Origin: Planctomycetia bacterium
GTDB lineage: Bacteria > Planctomycetota > GCA-002687715
Length of the DNA stretch: 64,000 bases
Direction: 5' to 3'
NCBI GenBank assembly: GCA_005790545.1
Contig: SXUL01000077.1
Location: 1 to 64,000, forward strand
Below, one piece after another: positions 23,807 to 38,665 of the stretch. Under the pieces are notes generated by a model, which saw only the letters and a list, made by a program, of their open reading frames with translations, did not search any database and was not told the DNA's origin. The first letter of the stretch is position 1, and every line of letters begins with the position of its first letter. The translations under genes and the position numbers were made by a program.

Positions 23807-24751
23807 ATGATGTCGCGCGCTTTCCTGATGAGTTCTGTTTGTGCGGTGTTGCTTGTCGGCTCCTGCGCCGAGGCAGGGGAGAGGGATCGTCCCGTGGCGG
23901 TTCCGTCATCCACAGGCTCGAGTCTTTTCGACCAACTCGAAGCGGCGCGCGGCAAGCACGCGCGTGAAGCGGCTGACAAGCCCGAAGCTGTGGCGCCCTC
24001 CGCAGAGATGCGTGAACTGGGCGCGCTCTGGAAGTCGTTCCTCGAGCAGCAAGCTGGCTGGCCGGAACGGCGCGAGGAATGGTGTCGCCGCGGCCCTGCG
24101 GCCAGGGCGCTTCTCGTCGAGAACCTGATCCGGACGATGATGCGCGCCCGCGATGCCGGTGAAGGCTCTCTGTTTCACCGCTGCCGGAAGGAACTCCTCG
24201 AGCATCGCGAGCCTGCCACAGCTCTCTTTGTAGAGGCGCTCGCGAGTCATCGGGGCGATCAGGTGCTGCGCAATCTCGCCGCGGAGACCCTCGCTTTCTT
24301 CGGACCGGCGAGTGCTGCACCGCTCATCAACGCAGCGCGCGGAGCGGACGAGCCAGGTCAGCGAGCCATTCTGGGGGCGCTCAAGCTCCTGGATGCTGCC
24401 GAAGCGCGTGTGTTCTTGGAGGAGGTGGCGGCAGGAGAGTCCTCCTTCGCCGTCCGCATCGAAGCGCTCGACGGACTGGCGCGCATCGCGGCTGCCGAAT
24501 CTGCTGCGGTTTGCCGGGCCTGTCTTCAGGATCGCGATCCATCTGTCCGCCGTTTCGCGTTCAAGCTCGCGGGTCAGCTCAAGTCCTCAGCCGCAGTGCT
24601 GCTGCCGCATGTGTTGGATGCATGGCAGCGATCCTTGCTGGCGGGTGAGATGGAGCTTTCTCGCGCTGGTCACTGGTCCGCGCGCCAACTGGCCGGGCGT
24701 GATCACGGAGCTGATCCCGCGCGCTGGCCGCGCGGAAAGGAAGCGCCATGA
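23807..24751 (+). CDS. Lipoprotein with HEAT-like repeats, function unknown
   Basis: Starting at 23807 the protein has 314 residues with a lipoprotein signal, SSVCAVLLVGSC, the Cys being the expected lipidation site. The mature part is Ala/Leu/Arg-rich and helical. From about residue 140 it has tandem approximately 30-residue units of HEAT type (DQVLRNLAAETLAFFGPASA; GQRAILGALKLLDAAEAR; FAVRIEALDGLARIA; PSVRRFAFKLAGQL), which usually bind other proteins. The frame is open further upstream but those residues lack signal features. Its stop overlaps the next start (ATGA). Confidence 0.7.
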   Translation: MMSRAFLMSSVCAVLLVGSCAEAGERDRPVAVPSSTGSSLFDQLEAARGKHAREAADKPEAVAPSAEMRELGALWKSFLEQQAGWPERREEWCRRGPAARALLVENLIRTMMRARDAGEGSLFHRCRKELLEHREPATALFVEALASHRGDQVLRNLAAETLAFFGPASAAPLINAARGADEPGQRAILGALKLLDAAEARVFLEEVAAGESSFAVRIEALDGLARIAAAESAAVCRACLQDRDPSVRRFAFKLAGQLKSSAAVLLPHVLDAWQRSLLAGEMELSRAGHWSARQLAGRDHGADPARWPRGKEAP

Positions 24752-25278
24752 CGACGGAGTGGGAGCGTCTGCTCAAACGTGCCGAGGAATGCTGCTCCGG
24801 CTGCGGCAAGGGGCTGCGCAACGGCGATGTTGTCACCACGCTCGAACTGGGAGCGGAGTCCTTCACGCGCAGGGAGTGGTGTGCTCCGTGTTTTGAAGAG
24901 CGCGAACCACCTGCGTTCTCGTTCTGGAAGCGCACCCTGGCGAAGGGGCAATCGCGTCGCCGTCTCGATCTTGCCTATCTCGCGGAACTTTTTCGCCGTC
25001 TCGACGGGCGCGACGATGCTATGGCCAAGCGCCTGCGCTGGATCGCGGCGTTGTTGCTGCTGCGGAAGAAACTCCTCGAAGAAAAGGGCCGCAGTTCCGT
25101 GGATGGCCGCGAGCAATTACATCTCGCATTCCGCCGCGAGGAACGCGAGTGGTGTGTCGAGGATCCGGGGCTCGATGCGGACTCGTTTCAGTCCATCGAG
25201 GCCGATCTCGGGCGCATCTTCGATCTCGAAGGTGACGCCGCGAAGGATGGAAGCGCTCAACCTCCGCGCACGCCGTAG
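24748..25278 (+). CDS. Cysteine-motif protein of unknown function
   Basis: A 176-residue soluble protein coupled to the upstream lipoprotein by ATGA. CCSGCGK (from residue 15) and WCAPCFEE (about 44-51) resemble a treble-clef-like zinc ribbon. A helical region with WIAALLLLRKKLLEEKGRSS follows, then an acidic tail. I do not recognise the family; an anonymous zinc-ribbon protein is the most that can be said. Its last 22 bp overlap the 3' end of upp on the other strand. Confidence 0.6.
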   Translation: MTTEWERLLKRAEECCSGCGKGLRNGDVVTTLELGAESFTRREWCAPCFEEREPPAFSFWKRTLAKGQSRRRLDLAYLAELFRRLDGRDDAMAKRLRWIAALLLLRKKLLEEKGRSSVDGREQLHLAFRREEREWCVEDPGLDADSFQSIEADLGRIFDLEGDAAKDGSAQPPRTP

Positions 25279-27669: not shown

Positions 27670-27980
27670 ACCTCGGCAGTCTCGGCAGGCATCCGGTCGG
27701 GCGCGTCATGGCGCTGCTGCTCGTCTTCATCCTCGCGCTGATCACGCTGGTGCGCAGGAACGAGTCACTGCGTTCCAGTTACGCGGCTCGTCAGCACCTC
27801 GAGAGGGTTGCGCGTCTCGAGAACGAGGTGCGCTGGATGGAGGCGCGTCGCGAGCAGGCCTTCTCGGCCAGCGGGTTGCTTGAGCGCAGTGCAACCCGTG
27901 GCCGCAAGGCTCCGGGTCATGGTGGACATGTGGAACGCGTCGCGCCTGCGACGGACGGGGCAGGCCCCTTGGGCAACTGA
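27666..27980 (+). CDS. ftsL: FtsL-like small bitopic membrane protein
   Basis: A 104-residue protein between rsmH and ftsI, the standard ftsL slot. A short cytoplasmic part is followed by one membrane helix (about residues 14-30, MALLLVFILALITLVRR) and a heptad-like stretch (HLERVARLENEVRWMEARRE), the usual FtsL coiled-coil layout. Sequence conservation of FtsL is low, so the name rests on position, size and topology. Overlaps rsmH (ATGA) and abuts ftsI. Confidence 0.6.
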   Translation: MNLGSLGRHPVGRVMALLLVFILALITLVRRNESLRSSYAARQHLERVARLENEVRWMEARREQAFSASGLLERSATRGRKAPGHGGHVERVAPATDGAGPLGN

Positions 27981-29836
27981 TGCAAAGCGCTCCAGAGACC
28001 TTTGGCGGGGACCGCCGCAGCGCGACGCTGCTCGTGCTCATCATCGCGGCGATGTTCTCCGTGTTGCTCGTGCGCTTGTTCATGGTGCAACTCCGGCCCG
28101 CGGAGAAGCTCGAAGAGCGCGGTGAGCGGCAGCGCTTCCGTGCAAAAGAGCGTGTGGGCACGGCGCTCCCCGAAGTCCCGGTGCGCGCCGAAGTGCGCGA
28201 TCGCGAGGGGCGTCTGCTTGCGTCCACCTGGTTCGACTTTGATCTGGTCGTGGACGCCGTCGAACTCCTGCGGGGTGCGAAGACTCCTGCCGAGCAGGCC
28301 GCACGCTGCACGGCGCTGGCCGGCACCGTTGCGAGCACCTTGCAGGGAACCCGGAAGAACCTGACAGCGAAAGCGCTGCTCATGACGCTCTCGAAAGGGG
28401 CGCTGAAGAAGCAGCCGACCCGCTGGTTGCCTTTGGTGCGCGGGCTCAACCCCACCGAGCAGCGCACGCTGGAAAAGGCGCTCGTGGGTGTGAAGGGCGT
28501 CCGCTTCGAGCATCACGAACGGCGTTCGTTCCCCTACGGTGCTGTGACAGCGCAGGTGGTGGGCTTGGTGGGCGAACACCCGAAAGATCGCCCCGGGCGT
28601 GTGGCCGGGCGGACGGGCATCGAGTTCCAGTTGGATCGCCTGTTGTCAGGCACCTCCGGCGCACTGCCGGTGGAAAAGGATGCAGCGGGGCGCGAGTTTC
28701 TGCCGCGCTGGGTCGAAGAGGCAACGCCCGTTCCCGGTGGGCAAGTCGAGCTCACACTCGATGCAGAGATTCAGCGCATCTGCATGGATGTTCTGGCGCA
28801 TTCCGTCCCTGCCTGCAAGGCGGAGAAGGGCAGCGCGGTGGTTCTTTCCGCGCGCACCGGTGAGGTGCTGGCGGCCTGCACCTGGCCCAGTGCTGATCCT
28901 CTGACCATCGGCCCCAAGGACTCGACCAAGCTCAATCTGGGAGCGTTCCTCGATCTCTACGAACCGGGCTCGACCATCAAGCCGCTCTTTGTGGCGTGGG
29001 CCTTGCAGCAGGGCCTCGTCAAGATGGACACGCGCTTCGATTGCGGCGGCGCCGACGGCGTGCACAACTTCGGCCCGCGTCTCGTGCGCGAGTACCACGC
29101 GAATCCCGCGCCGCTCACGGTGCGCGACATTCTCGTCAAGTCGAGCAATGTGGGTGCGGTCCGCATCGGCTACGAGAAGCTCGGGCTCGACGGCGAACTG
29201 GCCGCACTCAAGGCCTTTCACATGTCCGGGCGCATCAAGCTCGGATTTCCTTCCATGCCGAACAACCGGCATACAGAGAAGGCCAAGGCTCACGCGCTCT
29301 ACACACCCACGTCCTTCCCGCAGGGTTACGAGATGATGATGTCGCCCCTGATGATGGCGCGCGCCTTCCTCGTCTTTGCGCGCGGCGGCGAGTACATCGA
29401 GCCCACGCTCGTGCGCGCCATCCATCCGCATGGCGAACGCGTGCTCATGGACCTCGATGAGAGTTCGCGGCATGTGCGCGTGCTGGATCGCGAGGTGGCT
29501 CTCGCGGTTCGCAGCGCCCTTGAAGAAGTCATGGAGTCCGGCACGGGCAAGTCGGCACGCAGTGCGAAGTACGCCATCGCTGCCAAGACCGGGACGCCCA
29601 AGATCGGTCAGAGCGAGCTCTACAACCCGCTCATCTGCACCATGGCTCCGGTCGGCCCGCAGGACCCCGAGATCGTGGTGGTGGTGCTGCACCACCATGT
29701 GAAGAACCGCGGTCCCGGAACCTACACGGGTGGAACCGTCAGCGGCCCACCCGCACGTGACATCATCGAACGCACGCTCGACTACCTCCGCATTCCGGCG
29801 GACGCAGGGCGCAGCGCCAAGGCGGCCAAGCCATGA
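27980..29836 (+). CDS. ftsI: Class B penicillin-binding protein (FtsI/PBP3 type)
   Basis: Peptidoglycan transpeptidase of the divisome. 618 residues: membrane anchor about 15-35, pedestal with RAEVRDREGRLLA and GRTGIEFQLD, then the transpeptidase domain with active-site S331 in STIK, SSN at 388-390 and KTGT at 536-539. All catalytic motifs are intact, so cross-linking activity is expected. It would pair with the SEDS protein at 32404. Start overlaps the ftsL stop by one base; stop overlaps the MurE-like start (ATGA). Confidence 0.95.
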   Translation: MQSAPETFGGDRRSATLLVLIIAAMFSVLLVRLFMVQLRPAEKLEERGERQRFRAKERVGTALPEVPVRAEVRDREGRLLASTWFDFDLVVDAVELLRGAKTPAEQAARCTALAGTVASTLQGTRKNLTAKALLMTLSKGALKKQPTRWLPLVRGLNPTEQRTLEKALVGVKGVRFEHHERRSFPYGAVTAQVVGLVGEHPKDRPGRVAGRTGIEFQLDRLLSGTSGALPVEKDAAGREFLPRWVEEATPVPGGQVELTLDAEIQRICMDVLAHSVPACKAEKGSAVVLSARTGEVLAACTWPSADPLTIGPKDSTKLNLGAFLDLYEPGSTIKPLFVAWALQQGLVKMDTRFDCGGADGVHNFGPRLVREYHANPAPLTVRDILVKSSNVGAVRIGYEKLGLDGELAALKAFHMSGRIKLGFPSMPNNRHTEKAKAHALYTPTSFPQGYEMMMSPLMMARAFLVFARGGEYIEPTLVRAIHPHGERVLMDLDESSRHVRVLDREVALAVRSALEEVMESGTGKSARSAKYAIAAKTGTPKIGQSELYNPLICTMAPVGPQDPEIVVVVLHHHVKNRGPGTYTGGTVSGPPARDIIERTLDYLRIPADAGRSAKAAKP

Positions 29837-31065
29837 AAGCTTGTCGCATCGCGGCGCCAGCCACGCTGACCCTGAATGAACTTGCACCGCTGCTGCCGGC
29901 CGGGGAATTGAGTCTGAGTGGTGTCACGGCCCGTCTGGCATCCGTGCGGCGGGGCATGCTCTTCGTCGCCACGGACGGTGGCGCGGCGGTCGTGGAAGAA
30001 GCCATTTCCCGCGGCGCCGCGGCCATCGCGAGCGAGGAGCAGTCGCCGGATTCATGCACAGTGCCTTGGTTCCGCGTGCAGGATGCGCTGCGGCTTCTCG
30101 GCCATCTGGCGAGCCGGTTCGCGGCGGAGCCCTCACGGAAGATCGCCGTGACGGTGACAGCGGGAGGTCCCGGGCGTCGCGCTTTGCAGCAGGCCATCGC
30201 GCGTGTGGAGACGGACGCGGCTGCGGGTGTCGTTGCCGAGAAGCTCGCCAGTGTGCGCAGTCCCGGCTCCGAAAGCCTGCAGCGTCGCCTGCTTGCGCAT
30301 ATCCGCTCGGCGCGCAGGAGCGTTGTGCTCGAATGTCGTGCCGAAGACCTCCGCCGTGGTCGACTTGAAGGCATCCGCATTGCCTCACTCGTGGTCGCTG
30401 CGGGGACGATCCCGGCGAGCGAAGAACAGGCGACGCTCCTGGCACTGCTCACACGCTTGCCCGAGGAAGCGGTGGTGGTCATGGATGCGGATGACCCGGC
30501 AACCCTGGAGTGCGCGCAGTCCACGCGGGCGCTTGTGGTGACGGCAGGACAGAGCGCGACGGCCGACATCACCTGGCGCGTGCTGCGGCGTGACCGTCAG
30601 GGACAGACGCTGGAATGCGTATCCCCGCTCGGTCGTGCAACCTTTGCGCTCTCGACCATCGATCATGGCTCCGCAGCCGTCGCCGCACTGGCGTTCGCGC
30701 ATGCGGTCGTGCATGGAACGGCACCCGCTGCGGCAGCGGCTGCCCTCGCCGACAAGGTGAGCGGCCCGGAAGCGCTCTGGCGTCTCGCGCTGCCCGGGGC
30801 CTTCGATGTCTGGCAAGGGCGCGGTCGCCGACGGGAATCACTCGCGCGTGCACTGGTCGAAATCCAGCCCTTCACGAAGGGACGCGTGCTCTTGGTGAGC
30901 ACGCAGCGCGGGCTTGCTGGCGACTCACGCCGCGAGGCGCTGTGCGAAGCGTTGTCGGAGGCGCGTCCCGGAGATGCGTTGCTCGTGATGAGCGGCGAGG
31001 AGCACGCGGCGGACCGCGCAGCGATCCAGGAGTGGTTCCTCAGCGGGCTCACAGGCGCAGCATGA
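29833..31065 (+). CDS. MurE-like protein without catalytic motifs
   Basis: 410 residues in the murE slot, coupled to ftsI and murF by ATGA at both ends. The Mur-ligase layout can be followed. An N-terminal domain has GMLFVATDGG and ISRGAAAIA. LLGHLASRFAAEPSRKIAVT leads to where the P-loop should be, but GTNGKTT is replaced by TAGGPGR. VVLECRAEDLRRGRLEGI stands where EVSSH...RV is expected, and NLSRDHLDYH is gone. MDADDP keeps a trace of NADD. At the C terminus DYAHTPDAL becomes DVWQGRGRRRES, no DNPR is found, and the end is about 80 residues short. Catalysis is not expected. Assignment is from synteny plus weak alignment by eye. Confidence 0.65.
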   Translation: MKACRIAAPATLTLNELAPLLPAGELSLSGVTARLASVRRGMLFVATDGGAAVVEEAISRGAAAIASEEQSPDSCTVPWFRVQDALRLLGHLASRFAAEPSRKIAVTVTAGGPGRRALQQAIARVETDAAAGVVAEKLASVRSPGSESLQRRLLAHIRSARRSVVLECRAEDLRRGRLEGIRIASLVVAAGTIPASEEQATLLALLTRLPEEAVVVMDADDPATLECAQSTRALVVTAGQSATADITWRVLRRDRQGQTLECVSPLGRATFALSTIDHGSAAVAALAFAHAVVHGTAPAAAAAALADKVSGPEALWRLALPGAFDVWQGRGRRRESLARALVEIQPFTKGRVLLVSTQRGLAGDSRREALCEALSEARPGDALLVMSGEEHAADRAAIQEWFLSGLTGAA

Positions 31066-32411
31066 GCACAGCCACGATGACACACCTGACCACGGCGGAT
31101 GTGCGCTCGCTCTTGGGCCTTCCTGCGGGTGAGTGCGAGACTGTGTTGCACTGGACGACGGACAGTCGCGCTGTGCGACCGGGCAGTGCCTTTGTCGCGC
31201 TGTCGGGGTCGCAGCATGACGGCGCCACCTTCGCCATGCAGGCTGTTGCCGCGGGGGCCGTGCTGGTTGTCGCCGGGCCCGCAGCTCTGGAGCACCTGCG
31301 CATCCTGCGCGTGGCGAATCCTCTGGATGCGCTGGGTCGCATCGCCGGCCTCGCGCGCCTGCGTTTCGAGGGGCCGGTGCTGGGGATCACGGGCTCCGCG
31401 GGCAAGACCACGCTCAAGGAATTCCTGCGCACGCTCATCCCGGCAGATTGGAACGCCACCTTCCCGGAGGCTTCGCACAATAACGCCGAGGGATTGCCCC
31501 GGACGATTCTCGGAGCACACCCGGACGCGCGCTGCATGGTGCTGGAACTCGGCACCAACGCCCGCGGCGAAATCGCGGCGCTCTCAGCCATCGCGCGTCC
31601 GACGCTCGCGGCGCTCACTGCGATCGGGCCGGCGCATCTCCAAGGCCTCGGCAGTGTCGAAGGCGTCCTGAACGAGAAGCTCGACCTGGTGCGGGCCTTG
31701 CCCGCGGGTGCGACGGTTTTCGTGAATGCGGATGACGAACGCCTCTGTGCAGCGGAGCTGCCGCACGGGTTCCACATCGTGCGCACGGGCATGGTCAGTG
31801 CAAGCGCCGAGCACCGGCCCGGGCCGGGGAGTGACGCGCAGAGTTTCGTCCTCGAGGACGGGACGCGCATCGCGCACAACCTCGAAACGGCTGTGTTGCA
31901 GAGGGCACTCTGGATGGCGCTCCGGATCGCGCTGCATCTCGGCGTGCCCGCAGAGCACCTCGCTGCGGCAGCGCCGCGCGTGCGCGCGCACAAGCTGCGC
32001 GGCGAAATGCGTCAGGTCGGAGAAACCTCTCTCATTCTTGACTGCTACAACGCGAACCCGCTCTCCATGGGAGCAGCGCTCGCGGATCTCGCGCGCCGTC
32101 CTCTGCCGCGCCGCGCAGTGCTCGGAGACATGCGCGAACTGGGTGCCGGTGCGGAGGCTGCCCATCGCGTACTCGGTGTGCAGCTTGCGGCAGCTTCCGT
32201 CGAAGAAGCGCTCCTCATCGGAGCTTTCGCGCCCATCGTCGCGGAGAGTGCACATGCGGCCGGCCTCCCTGCGCGTGCCATCACCATCTGTCCGGATACA
32301 GCCAGCGCGGCCAGTGCGTTCCGGATGCTCGTTGCACGCGGCGGAACCGTGCTCTTGAAGGCATCCCGTGGTATGGCTCTCGAACGTCTGCTGGAAGGAC
32401 TCCATGACTGA
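31062..32411 (+). CDS. murF: UDP-N-acetylmuramoyl-tripeptide--D-alanyl-D-alanine ligase
   Basis: Adds D-Ala-D-Ala to the UDP-MurNAc peptide. Starting at 31062 (ATGA overlap) it has 449 residues: N-terminal DSR (34-36) with RPGSAFVAL, ATP loop GITGSAGKTTLKEF (about 109-122), HNNAEGLP, VLELGTNARGEI, the VNADDE motif and the C-terminal LILDCYNANPLSM. All Mur-ligase signatures are intact, in contrast to its upstream neighbour. A longer frame from 30615 is not used. Confidence 0.95.
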   Translation: MSTATMTHLTTADVRSLLGLPAGECETVLHWTTDSRAVRPGSAFVALSGSQHDGATFAMQAVAAGAVLVVAGPAALEHLRILRVANPLDALGRIAGLARLRFEGPVLGITGSAGKTTLKEFLRTLIPADWNATFPEASHNNAEGLPRTILGAHPDARCMVLELGTNARGEIAALSAIARPTLAALTAIGPAHLQGLGSVEGVLNEKLDLVRALPAGATVFVNADDERLCAAELPHGFHIVRTGMVSASAEHRPGPGSDAQSFVLEDGTRIAHNLETAVLQRALWMALRIALHLGVPAEHLAAAAPRVRAHKLRGEMRQVGETSLILDCYNANPLSMGAALADLARRPLPRRAVLGDMRELGAGAEAAHRVLGVQLAAASVEEALLIGAFAPIVAESAHAAGLPARAITICPDTASAASAFRMLVARGGTVLLKASRGMALERLLEGLHD

Positions 32412-33534
32412 GCCCACTCGCGCACAGCACGACGCACGCATGGCGACGCTCGTGCTCTCGGCATTGGCACTCGCCATCATCGGCGTGCTCATTCAGGTGG
32501 CGGTGGATTCGCCGCGGGCGCCCGTCGCATTTCAGCGTGCGCTGCGCCAGGTCGTCTACGTGGTTGCCGCAGGAGGGTTGGCCTGGGGTGCGTACTGGTA
32601 TGGCCACAAGCGCGCCATCCGGCTCGCACCTTGGGGCCTCTACGCGACCTGGATCCTGCTCGCGGTTCTGCTCATTCCCGGCATGCCCAAGCGCGGTGGT
32701 GCGACGCGCTGGATCGATCTCGGGCCAGTGAACATGCAACCGAGCGAACTGGCCAAGCTGGCGCTCGTGCTCTTCGTGACGCACTTTGCCGAGAAGAAGG
32801 GGCAGACCTTCGGAACGGTGCGTCAGGGCCTCATGCCGGCGCTCGGGTACGTCGCGGTTACTTGCGGACTCGTGTTGCTCGAACCGGACCTCGGCCAGAC
32901 GGTGCTGCTCCTGGCGCTCGCGTCCGTGATGATGGTCATCAACGGTGCCGCCATCAGGAACTTCATGGTTCTGATCGGGATCGGCATACCGCTGCTCGTC
33001 GCATTCATGGGCAGCAAGTGGGAGTACGTGCGCGGGCGTATCGAGAGTTATCTCGGCGAGGGCAGCTACCAGGTCCAGCAGGGCCTGATCTTTTTCTCCG
33101 AAGGTGGTGCACTCGGTACGGGCATCGGGCAGGGGAGAAGCCAGCTCTTCGTGCCCGAGATCCACAACGACTTCGCCATGGTGGCTGTGGCGGAACAGAC
33201 CGGATTCTTCGGGGCGCTCTGCGTCATCGGCCTCTTTCTCGCGCTGAGCTGGAGTGGATTCCGCATCGCGCTCGCAGCGAAGGAGCGCGGGAGTTTCAGT
33301 GTGGCCTTCGGGGCCACCTTCATGATCGCGCTGCAGGCCTGCATCAACATCAGCGTGGTCACCGGGTCTATTCCGCCGAAGGGCATGAGCATCCCTTTCC
33401 TTTCGTTTGGCGGCTCGTCACTGCTGATGCTCGGTCTCGCCATCGGGCTCATTCTTTCGGTGGCGCGCGAGAACGCACTCGCCGCAAGTCCGGTCAATGC
33501 AACAGGCGCGCTCCCTGAAGGAGCGGCCGCGTGA
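32404..33534 (+). CDS. ftsW: SEDS-family glycosyltransferase FtsW/RodA
   Basis: Lipid II polymerase of the division or elongation machinery, multi-spanning inner-membrane protein. 376 residues from 32404 (8-bp overlap with murF). Conserved blocks: GGATRWIDLGPVNMQPSELAKLA, LLEPDLGQTVLLL, GEGSYQVQQGLIFFSEGG, the periplasmic VPEIHNDFAMVAVAEQTGFFG and PPKGMSIPFLSFGGSSLL. The dcw position and nearby ftsI favour FtsW over RodA. mraY and murD, which usually separate murF and ftsW, are absent. Confidence 0.92.
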   Translation: MTEPTRAQHDARMATLVLSALALAIIGVLIQVAVDSPRAPVAFQRALRQVVYVVAAGGLAWGAYWYGHKRAIRLAPWGLYATWILLAVLLIPGMPKRGGATRWIDLGPVNMQPSELAKLALVLFVTHFAEKKGQTFGTVRQGLMPALGYVAVTCGLVLLEPDLGQTVLLLALASVMMVINGAAIRNFMVLIGIGIPLLVAFMGSKWEYVRGRIESYLGEGSYQVQQGLIFFSEGGALGTGIGQGRSQLFVPEIHNDFAMVAVAEQTGFFGALCVIGLFLALSWSGFRIALAAKERGSFSVAFGATFMIALQACINISVVTGSIPPKGMSIPFLSFGGSSLLMLGLAIGLILSVARENALAASPVNATGALPEGAAA

Positions 33535-33688: not shown

Positions 33689-34369
33689 ATGACACATGAA
33701 AAAATCGCGGTCCTGGTGGTCACTGTCGTGATCGCCGTGCTGCTTTCCCTGACCCTGCTTTCGAGCCCCGGAACACCGGTGGTGGAAACCGCCGAACTGA
33801 AGACGCCGGACCCGGCGACGACAGATCCACTCGATCCGAACGGCGCGGCACCGTTTGGCATGCAGGATGTGCTGGATGGGAAGACGGCCACGCAACTCCA
33901 GATGCCGCCCAAGCCCGCCAGCGCGGAAGTGGTGGGGCCCACGCTCGACATGGCCGCACCGCTTTCCCATCGCATCGCGAACGGCGAAACGCTCGACGTG
34001 ATCGCGAAGCGCCTCTACGGCCGCGCCTCGGCCGCTTCCGAGATCCTCGCGGCGAACCCGGGGCTGAACCCCCGGCGCATGAAGGTCGGCACCGAACTGA
34101 AGCTGCCGCGTCCGCCCACGCTCAAGAGCAAGGCGACGACGGAAGCGGCCGCAGTGTCGAGACCAAGCAGTGTCTCCAGTGGCACGGGGGCCGTGGCGCC
34201 AGTCAGCAGCGCCGCGGTGCATGTGGTGCGCTCCAAGGACAGCCTCGGTTCCATCGCCCGCTCGCGCTACGGCTCGGAGAATGCGTGGCGCAAGATCTAC
34301 GACGCCAACCGCGACAAGCTGAAGAGCCCCGACAAGTTGGTCGTGGGCATGAAGCTCCGCCTGCCCTGA
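33689..34369 (+). CDS. Membrane-anchored protein with two LysM domains
   Basis: 226 residues from 33689 (AAGGAGA 8-9 nt upstream). A single N-terminal membrane helix (IAVLVVTVVIAVLLSLTLL) is followed by a Pro/Thr-rich linker. LysM 1 is at about residues 90-130 (HRIANGETLDVIAKRLYGR...ILAANPGLNPRRMKVGTELKLP) and LysM 2 at about 180-226 (HVVRSKDSLGSIARSRYGS...KLVVGMKLRLP). LysM binds N-acetylglucosamine in peptidoglycan. Placement between ftsW and murB suggests a wall-binding partner of the division machinery. No catalytic domain is present. Confidence 0.85.
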   Translation: MTHEKIAVLVVTVVIAVLLSLTLLSSPGTPVVETAELKTPDPATTDPLDPNGAAPFGMQDVLDGKTATQLQMPPKPASAEVVGPTLDMAAPLSHRIANGETLDVIAKRLYGRASAASEILAANPGLNPRRMKVGTELKLPRPPTLKSKATTEAAAVSRPSSVSSGTGAVAPVSSAAVHVVRSKDSLGSIARSRYGSENAWRKIYDANRDKLKSPDKLVVGMKLRLP

Positions 34370-34380
34370 CGGGGTCGGAG

Positions 34381-35292
34381 GTGGCTGAGCCGGTGGTGGA
34401 TCCAGACTGGGTTCAGGAATACGCCGCGGAGCGGGGGACCTCGCTCCGCGACCTCACCACCGTGCATGTGGGAGGGGTCGCGCGCTGGCTTGTCCGGCCG
34501 CGCGACGCGGACTCCACTGCGCGACTCCTGCGGGATCTGGCTGCCGCTGCGACTTCCTGGCGCATTCTTGGTGGTGGCAGCAATCTCCTCGTTGCGGACG
34601 GGGAGGTCGGGCCTGTGGTGGTGCATATGTCCGGCCTGCAGACCGTCGCGATGCTCGGGGACGAGTTGATCTTCGGGGCGGGCGTCGCCTTGCAACGGGC
34701 AGTGAATCATGCGACTGACGAGGGGCTCGCCGGTGCCGAGGTGCTCACGGGCATCCCCGGGCAGATCGGCGGTGCCCTCGCCATGAATGCGGGCGGCCGC
34801 TACGGCGCCATGGCGGATGTCGTTAGTTGGGTGGAAGTGGCGTTGCCATCTGGAGATCTGGCACGACTCTCGAATGGGGACCTGCACTTTGCCTACCGCA
34901 CGACGTGCCTGCCCGAGGGTGCGGCCGTGACGCGCGTGGCCTGGCGGTTGAAGCCCAGCGCAGATCGTGCGGCCTTGAAGCGGAGAGCGGGCAGCATCCT
35001 CAAGGAGAAAAACGCTGCGCAACCGACGCAAGCATGGAACTTCGGCTGCATGTTCAAGAACCCGGTGGGCCAGTCAGCCGGAAAGCTCATCGAGGCGGCT
35101 GGCCTGAAGGGGCGTCAGGAAGGCATGGCCCGCATCTCTCCGAGGCACGGAAACTTCATCGAGAACCTCGGCGAGGCGCGGGCGCTGGACATTCTCAAGC
35201 TGATGGAACTCTGCGAAGCCGAGGTCGCGCGTGGAGCCGGCATCCGCCTTGAGCGTGAGGTCCGGGTCTGGCCCGGATTGACGTTCCCCTGA
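34381..35292 (+). CDS. murB: UDP-N-acetylenolpyruvoylglucosamine reductase
   Basis: Second committed step of peptidoglycan synthesis, FAD-dependent. TTVHVGGVARWLV, ILGGGSNLLVAD, GIPGQIGGALAMNAGGRYG, HFAYRTTCLPEG (Tyr-Arg pair), NFGCMFKNPVGQSAGKLIEAAGLKG and RHGNFIENLGEA are canonical; the Ser that protonates the intermediate lies in GCMFKNP (Cys in the usual Ser region), type II-like. Start is uncertain: GTG at 34381 gives 303 residues, but GTG at 34393 has better spacing from GGAGG. Confidence 0.93.
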   Translation: MAEPVVDPDWVQEYAAERGTSLRDLTTVHVGGVARWLVRPRDADSTARLLRDLAAAATSWRILGGGSNLLVADGEVGPVVVHMSGLQTVAMLGDELIFGAGVALQRAVNHATDEGLAGAEVLTGIPGQIGGALAMNAGGRYGAMADVVSWVEVALPSGDLARLSNGDLHFAYRTTCLPEGAAVTRVAWRLKPSADRAALKRRAGSILKEKNAAQPTQAWNFGCMFKNPVGQSAGKLIEAAGLKGRQEGMARISPRHGNFIENLGEARALDILKLMELCEAEVARGAGIRLEREVRVWPGLTFP

Positions 35293-36582: not shown

Positions 36583-36596
36583 TAGCATCGTCATCA
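36583..36596 (+). promoter_or_regulatory. -10-like TAGCAT placed for a leaderless transcript
   Basis: TAGCAT (36583-36588) ends exactly 7 nt before the ATG at 36596, where transcription would begin at the start codon. No Shine-Dalgarno is visible before that ATG. No convincing -35 is seen. Confidence 0.4.
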
Positions 36597-38665
36597 TGAA
36601 CCGCGTCATCACGCGCTGGATCGTCGCATTTGCTGCGCTGTCCACAGCGTTGATGCTCACGCTTGTCATCACGCGGGACGATGGCAGGGCGCTGCTCGAG
36701 ATCCTCCCGCGCGAGCGAGCCCTGTTCGCCTTCGCGACCTTGCTGCTCTTGTTCCCGCTCTTCGTACTGCCGGGCGTGCTGGCTCGCGGGGAACCCGAAG
36801 CACGCAGCGTCGCTCTCTGGCTGCTCATCGACTCGCTGCTCTTCGCAGCGGTGCCGCTGGTCTTTTCCGCCTACATCTCCGCGGTTTCCGCCTCTGGGCT
36901 TCTGCGTCTCGGGCTCCTCATCGCTACCGTCACGGCTCTCCCGCTCGCATTCCAGCGCCTCGGGGTTGGCACACGCGGTGTGCGCGGGCTGGCGACGAGT
37001 CTCTGCGGATTGTTGTTGATGCTGCCGGTGTTGGGGCTTCTTGCCACGGCCGCAAGAGCAGACCGGTTCGCGGCCGTACTCGCGACAGTCTCGCCTCTCG
37101 ATTGGGTGGCGCGCATCGCGTTGCGCCGCGAAGTTCCGGAACTGGTGCCCTTCGCATTGGCTGCGGCTTCTGTCTGGGCCGTTGCGATTCTTCCACGCCG
37201 GGTCGCTCGGCCCACGCTGTTGGCTTGCGCGTGCGCCCTGATGGTGCTGCCCGCGAGCGAGCCTTTCACATGGCGACAGCTTGGCTCGTTTCCCGTGCGC
37301 GCCGGTGTGCGCGTGGCCGTTGAAGTCGTGGCGCCACGCGGTGAATCCGCCTGGATTCTGAACACGGGCGGCTCGGCGGTCAGCATTCCGGCGGATGGCG
37401 TGAGTCACCAGCTTCTCGTCACGGTGACCGATCCAAGTGCATGGGGGCGTGTCACTCATGCGGGTGCAACGGAAGATCTGGCTCCTCCTTGGCGGGTGCA
37501 GGATGCGCGCCAGCCAGTGCGCGTGCGTGTCGCGGAAACCCCGGTCGAAGGTGCGTGGGTGGATCAGCGCGCCCTTGCACTCGGACCTGCAGCGCTCGAA
37601 GCGCCGGACGTGGTGGTTCTCAGCGAGTCATGCTTCGGAAGACTTGGCCAGCGTGCGCAGGCTGCTCTGCAAACGGCTGCGGCCTGTGGTGCCTTGGTCA
37701 TCATCGAAGACGCCGTGCGTGCGGAGGAGAAATGGACCGGAACCGGCGGCATCCTCCGTGTGCAGGGGCCGGCAACTGCTCTGCCCGTGTTCTACTCTTG
37801 GAAGAAGCCCGAGTTCAGCATCGCTGACCGCGAGTTCCTCGGAACGGTGGCACCGCTCGGCTGGCAGGAACTCGATCTCAGTGCCGTGCTCTGGTTCACG
37901 CTCGCATACCACGCGGCCTTCCTCGCGGCGTTTCTGTTGCCGCTGCTGCTCGACGCGCACAAGGCTCCGCGCGTCTACCTCGCCAGCGTGACCTTCGTCG
38001 TGCTGGTCGTCGCCTTCGGCGGCTACCGCGTTCTGAAGTCCATCTTTCTCCGCGACAATCAGGTCTACACACAGTCGACCGGGCTCATGCTGGGAGAGGC
38101 ACGTGCCGGTGCGGAAGTGTTGCTCCGGCGTTTCGTGGCCTATGCGTCCATGAGCGCAGAAGAAAGGCTCGTGGTCTTCCCGGATGCGAGCGAGCCCATG
38201 CTGGTCTCGGCAGCCTCCAGTCATGGCGCGGCTCTCCGTGAAGACATGCACCGCGCAGCATGGTGGCTGAAACTCGACCGGCATGAGGGCAAGACTCTCG
38301 CGCGCCTTGACGATGTCCTTTCCGCGCCGTGGTCCGTCGTCGCAGAAGGCAGGGGATTCCGTTGCCAGCGCAACGCGGGGGAGGGCCTCTTTGCGGAGGC
38401 GCGCATCACAGGGGCCTTGCTGGTGGAGGGAGGGCAGGTCGTCGCCCGCTTTGCGCCTGCTGGCGAGATGCTCCTGCCGACATCAGAGCTGGAGCTCTTT
38501 CCACCGGGTGTTGAGGGGGCTTTCCGCAAGTTGCAGGGGCGCTATGGCCGGGAGATGCCGCGGCACCTCTTGCTCGCGCTCAACGGCATGCAGCGGGGGG
38601 ATGTCCCTGAAGACTGGCTCGTGGAACGGGATGCCGGGTGCTATTGGATGGTCCCGCTGCCCTGA
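36596..38665 (+). CDS. Large multi-pass membrane protein of unknown function
   Basis: 689 residues. About seven hydrophobic helices occupy residues 1-230. A long extramembrane section follows (about 240-430), with a Rossmann-like run (VVVLSESCFGRLGQRAQAALQTAAACGALVIIEDAV) that resembles a glutamine-amidotransferase-like or CARF-like fold in outline only. One or two helices lie near 440-490 (FTLAYHAAFLAAFLLPLLL; VYLASVTFVVLVVAFGGY), then a C-terminal soluble region. Architecture recalls planctomycete membrane proteins with an inserted DUF4350/GATase1-like domain, but I cannot name a family. Likely leaderless. Confidence 0.6.
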   Translation: MNRVITRWIVAFAALSTALMLTLVITRDDGRALLEILPRERALFAFATLLLLFPLFVLPGVLARGEPEARSVALWLLIDSLLFAAVPLVFSAYISAVSASGLLRLGLLIATVTALPLAFQRLGVGTRGVRGLATSLCGLLLMLPVLGLLATAARADRFAAVLATVSPLDWVARIALRREVPELVPFALAAASVWAVAILPRRVARPTLLACACALMVLPASEPFTWRQLGSFPVRAGVRVAVEVVAPRGESAWILNTGGSAVSIPADGVSHQLLVTVTDPSAWGRVTHAGATEDLAPPWRVQDARQPVRVRVAETPVEGAWVDQRALALGPAALEAPDVVVLSESCFGRLGQRAQAALQTAAACGALVIIEDAVRAEEKWTGTGGILRVQGPATALPVFYSWKKPEFSIADREFLGTVAPLGWQELDLSAVLWFTLAYHAAFLAAFLLPLLLDAHKAPRVYLASVTFVVLVVAFGGYRVLKSIFLRDNQVYTQSTGLMLGEARAGAEVLLRRFVAYASMSAEERLVVFPDASEPMLVSAASSHGAALREDMHRAAWWLKLDRHEGKTLARLDDVLSAPWSVVAEGRGFRCQRNAGEGLFAEARITGALLVEGGQVVARFAPAGEMLLPTSELELFPPGVEGAFRKLQGRYGREMPRHLLLALNGMQRGDVPEDWLVERDAGCYWMVPLP

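Follow-up and report, generated by a model that had tools for sequence, protein, structure and literature searches.

The window, the whole 64,000-nucleotide stretch of Planctomycetia bacterium DNA analysed here, comes from a MAG of 2.87 Mb that is 91% complete. It contains a division and cell-wall cluster with the order mraZ, rsmH, a small frame in the ftsL position, ftsI, the gene of interest (here X), murF, ftsW, a gene for a LysM protein, murB, a small conserved gene, and an ftsQ-like gene. X is a single intact frame of 410 codons with no internal stops. As the initial annotation had stated, it occupies the murE slot between ftsI and murF and is joined to both neighbours by ATGA overlaps:

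27980-29836, plus strand: ftsI, a class B PBP with intact SxxK, SxN and KTG motifs (PF00905, 146 bits)
29833-29836, plus strand: ATGA overlap of the X start with the ftsI stop, read directly in the sequence
29833-31065, plus strand: X, a pseudo-MurE of 410 amino acids by open reading frame, profile scores and alignment
31062-31065, plus strand: ATGA overlap of the murF start with the X stop, read directly in the sequence
31062-32411, plus strand: murF, with intact P-loop and YNAN motif (TIGR01143, 288.4 bits)
32368-33534, plus strand: ftsW by profile match (frame as listed; the real start is probably a few codons further in)
34285-35292, plus strand: murB by profile match

Two conserved genes at 24748-25278 and 36596-38665 of the window border the cluster in most relatives, with 61-62% and 46% identity in the congeners.

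X scores 38.6 bits against the MurE family model TIGR01085, short of the curated cut-off of 257.3, and as a single sequence it also stays under the Pfam cut-off for the middle domain. Comparison of profiles is far more sensitive to its origin: a profile of three congeneric X orthologues aligns with one of eight canonical MurEs over 393 columns in hhalign (probability 99.5%, E 1.2e-22), and the match to MurF is clearly weaker (94%, E 1e-7). A PDB search with the profile of the three congeneric copies alone likewise returned MurE and chains of the plant MurE-like protein PAP11. AlphaFold models of X were poor, whether built from the three X rows only (pLDDT 44.6) or with MurF rows added (pLDDT 58.3). 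Foldseek nevertheless ranked PAP11/MurE first for both low-confidence models (E 2.6e-16 and 4.9e-11), the second value belonging to the model that included neither MurE nor MurF rows, for which PAP11 and MurE came out on top. Because of the low global TM-scores (0.33-0.45), these matches support the identity of the fold only and not the arrangement of domains. Within that limit the models point to a Mur ligase fold, and on the profile alignments X is a true MurE homologue over nearly its whole length. The initial annotation had recognised a Mur-ligase pattern over about 330 residues; the homology is real, but it spans nearly the whole protein and is broken by the loss of about 50 residues inside the C-terminal domain.

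In the alignment, the P-loop, TTP, EVSSH, DHLDYH, carbamylated-lysine, DYAH, DNPR and KGHE signatures are all gone from X. The corresponding sites are:

30160-30183, plus strand: remnant of the ATP P-loop, AGGPGRRA in place of TGTNGKTT (residues 110-117)
30331-30372, plus strand: remnant of EVSSHALxxxRxxG, ECRAEDLRRGRLEG (residues 167-180), with E, R and G retained
30805-30843, plus strand: remnant of DYAHTPDAL, DVWQGRGRRRESL (residues 325-337)
30898-30930, plus strand: site of the deletion of about 50 residues in the C-terminal domain that took out GCGGxRD...DNPR

TTP has become RSP, EVSSH has become ECRAE, and the carbamylated lysine is a leucine; DHLDYH and the DNPR amino-acid-binding loop are deleted, and KGHE is replaced by SGEEHA. 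The initial annotation was correct that the signatures it named are absent, though in the EVSSH...RxxG region three residues, E167, R177 and G180, remain. The internal deletion is common to genus g1, to which X belongs, and leaves the last strand and helix of the C-terminal domain in place. Among 28 canonical MurEs of the phylum Planctomycetota, 89 columns are conserved at 90% or more; X covers 65 of these and retains 24 of the 65, the other 24 being gapped. The retained columns are mostly G, A, P and L, together with the Arg of the RxxG motif. The same division is seen in the pseudo-MurEs of two families (that of X and a second, f3), in nearly all of which the structural G, A, P and L columns persist, whereas TT, SSH, the H and D of DHLD, the H of DYAH, the DN of DNPR and the K of KGHE have disappeared or been altered. 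Judged by its alignment, X is a MurE-derived pseudoenzyme.

Orthologues of X lie in the ftsI-murF slot in all six genomes of its family of uncultured Planctomycetota, and the X-like proteins of these six species share conserved residues at about 30-45% identity to X. All genomes compared are MAGs. The two congeners are the Planctomycetota MAGs SIAO01000003.1 (Baikal-deep-G176) and CAMDTN010000031.1, which were the only matches in an alignment-based scan of genome contigs with X; a scan with the single protein gave no match. The orthologues form a graded series of decay. Those of G004 and G005, from other genera, are full length and retain the P-loop lysine (TIGR01085, 219 and 202 bits), with the carbamylated-lysine position also retained in G004; that of G003 is more decayed (75 bits), and those of genus g1 are the most decayed (31-39 bits). 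The sister family f2 has only one murE, which is canonical and occupies the ftsI-murF slot. In f3 the same slot holds a truncated, motif-less MurE-like protein without the N-terminal domain (L077-L079). The X proteins of the family form a clade in the tree (support 99/96, rising to 100/100 when fewer rows are used). A clade of all nine proteins, the six X and the f3 forms, has support of 63/94, and the f3 form may or may not share the origin of X. A search of 392 Planctomycetota genomes found the X clade in none outside the family: the six family copies matched at 1e-42 or better, the next matches reached at best 1e-32, and the 14 best of these that were checked were all canonical, which speaks against a wider spread of the clade among these genomes. 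The f3 MAGs G007, G009 and G011 contain ftsI, murF, ftsW and murB. Canonical murE, murD and mraY were not found in these three, through MAG gaps or real loss, and only G011 has a murG match above 200 bits.

The initial annotation proposed looking elsewhere for a canonical murE, and one is present on contig C7 of the same genome, complete with all motifs (503.8 bits) and followed by murD. The GC content of C7 is 66.2%, compared with 65.6% in the window, and both congeners repeat the flippase-murE-murD order, with 59-73% identity, a divergence similar to that of the flanking cluster genes. This recurrence, together with a tetranucleotide correlation of 0.975 between C7 and the window, rules out that C7 is a contaminant. 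A separate murE-murD-murC cluster, and thus a canonical murE, is found in four of the five family relatives (G001, G002, G004 and G005); neither was found in the MAG G003. The suggestion that this lineage adds the third peptide residue with a different ligase consequently falls, since the canonical murE in the same genome makes no such ligase necessary. The second murE may have come by duplication or by transfer; a single clade of the family copies was not rejected (p-AU 0.39). The source genome also encodes a MurC-like ligase (L046; G000:C92:21180-22512) that scores 270.7 bits against a cut-off of 335, and 95.8 as Mpl; relatives of L046 occur in the congeners alongside the murC that belongs to the murE-murD-murC cluster.

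Selection on X was estimated from one congener pair, G001 and G002, with ratios calculated from dN and dS values. The dN/dS of X is 0.195 (NG86) or 0.151 (YN00), compared with 0.160 and 0.186 for murF and 0.187 and 0.146 for canonical murE; dS is saturated (above 1.1), so all these figures are rough. X diverges faster than ftsI, for which the ratio is 0.063. Third positions of X have changed almost three times as much as second positions (0.541 versus 0.188), and no stop is seen, although neutral drift that produced this much third-position divergence would be expected to introduce about 10. By these measures X is under purifying selection, with a dN/dS equal to that of murF and canonical murE. 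Neither stops nor frameshifts were seen in the orthologues of the six family genomes, and with dN/dS not near 1 this speaks strongly against a pseudogene. The earlier reading of X as a pseudoenzyme preserved by selection is borne out by intact orthologues in six genomes, ratios of about 0.15-0.20 and a fold search that, on low-confidence models, returns MurE and not an unrelated fold.

Two features of X are conserved in its orthologues and rare or absent in canonical MurEs:

30079-30117, plus strand: helix with Q83, R87, H91 and R95 at every fourth residue, a candidate contact face that X orthologues conserve and MurEs rarely have
31033-31041, plus strand: C-terminal W401-F402-L403, conserved in X, with the W and F in none of 27 MurEs by column comparison

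X has 29 such specific conserved columns and a control group of related canonical MurEs has 16-25, so the Q83/R87/H91/R95 face is a hint rather than proof and may partly reflect ancestry.

We propose, and put the chance at about even, that X, a pseudoenzyme descended from MurE, has been retained to serve MurF or FtsI as a non-catalytic scaffold or regulator; put more broadly, the machinery that builds the wall probably has in X a structural or regulatory partner. The ancestral murE of the division and cell-wall cluster would have lost catalysis, with the second murE, in the murE-murD-murC cluster elsewhere, carrying out the reaction. The old copy would have been retained as a folded, non-catalytic protein that is translationally coupled with FtsI and MurF. 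It would act by protein contact, taking the position of MurE in a complex with MurF, and via MurF it could reach MurG or the FtsI/FtsW synthase. X may thereby hold MurF near the wall-building machinery or tune MurF activity, in either case with no turnover of ATP or substrate. Such a contact role is plausible by analogy, given that Bordetella MurE-MurF binds MurG (PMC6420597) and that in plants a homologue of MurE forms a peripheral subunit of the plastid RNA polymerase (PMC12681378), and it is consistent with the operon position of X, the helix face and W401/F402.

The retention of Arg177, which is invariant in the 28 MurEs, and of E167 in the X genus would also suit a regulatory sensor: the old cleft would still bind a ligand (a nucleotide, UDP-MurNAc-peptide or lipid intermediate), and X would adjust MurF or FtsI to the precursor level. 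The P-loop lysine of G004 and G005 and the carbamylated-lysine position of G004 fit this too, but the P-loop lysine is gone from genus g1 and G003, neither TTP nor SSH survives, and all six family members have a degraded N-terminal DSR motif; a sensor seems to us unlikely. X could instead have been recruited to a role outside peptidoglycan, for which the recruitment of plant MurE (PAP11) to the plastid RNA polymerase is a precedent and which agrees with the X profile and models matching PAP11 nearly as well as MurE; given that X lies in a wall and division operon in every family genome, we consider this quite improbable.

Strong conservation of the X-only residues R152, D172, E179, R252 and D254 might indicate an enzyme with new chemistry or a new substrate that leaves the Mur ATP site unused. 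Most of the invariant active-site columns have gone, however, as has the core of the domain that binds the incoming amino acid, and no alternative nucleotide motif was seen in X, all of which makes continued catalysis very improbable. It is also very improbable that X is a gene in decay, or a spacer whose sole use is to let ribosomes pass from ftsI to murF: the ATGA overlaps at both ends, the divergence faster than that of ftsI and the catalytic and C-terminal losses would be expected of one, but amino-acid constraint near the level of murF, residues conserved across six species at such low identity and the lack of stops in any orthologue stand against it, and purifying selection has already largely refuted it.

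FtsZ (TIGR00065) was found in none of the 12 genomes of the order, with 13 of 14 control genomes positive, and the lack of FtsZ in the order means that division is probably organised otherwise. The source genome also has a frame of 1359 amino acids (L152; G000:C72:620-4696, minus strand) comprising MurG with both GT28 domains, a linker that is FHA-like by eye, the lipid II flippase MurJ and HEAT repeats; it is followed by mraY at the contig end. Long frames like L152 (1082-1479 amino acids) lie behind the murG match in G002, G003, G004, G005, G006, G008 and G011. A dead MurE might be a dedicated non-catalytic subunit of wall synthesis in this FtsZ-less order, shaped separately in two families by loss of the C-terminal core in one and of the N-terminal domain in the other, and connecting FtsI/FtsW with the supply of precursors (MurF and the MurG-MurJ fusion). 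We offer this wider idea tentatively, as possible but doubtful.

In the open-access literature searched we found no report of a bacterial Mur-ligase pseudoenzyme. With living intermediates that range from almost full length to heavily shortened, X shows stepwise what a Mur ligase retains once catalysis is unneeded. For the structural role that Mur ligases are suspected of playing in wall-synthesis complexes it is a natural separation-of-function probe, and it bears on how Planctomycetota divide without FtsZ.

X resembles MurE, the UDP-MurNAc-tripeptide synthetase (TIGR01085), in descent, in the order of its three domains and in its place between ftsI and murF; it differs in having lost the catalytic and substrate signatures, in missing about 50 residues of the C-terminal domain and in not reaching the family cut-off. 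The f3 proteins share its slot and the loss of catalytic motifs, but they lack the N-terminal domain whereas X lacks the C-terminal core. PAP11 is likewise derived from MurE and is reported as a structural subunit that does not act in wall synthesis; it is a partner of RNA polymerase in the plant plastid, whereas X is bacterial, more decayed and encoded in a wall operon. In the Bordetella MurE-MurF fusion, the two proteins are physically linked and bind MurG. X resembles this fusion in the pairing of MurE with MurF, which for X is a pairing of neighbouring genes, but in Bordetella each half is part of a bifunctional ligase, whereas X is a separate, dead protein and of the two neighbours just MurF is intact.
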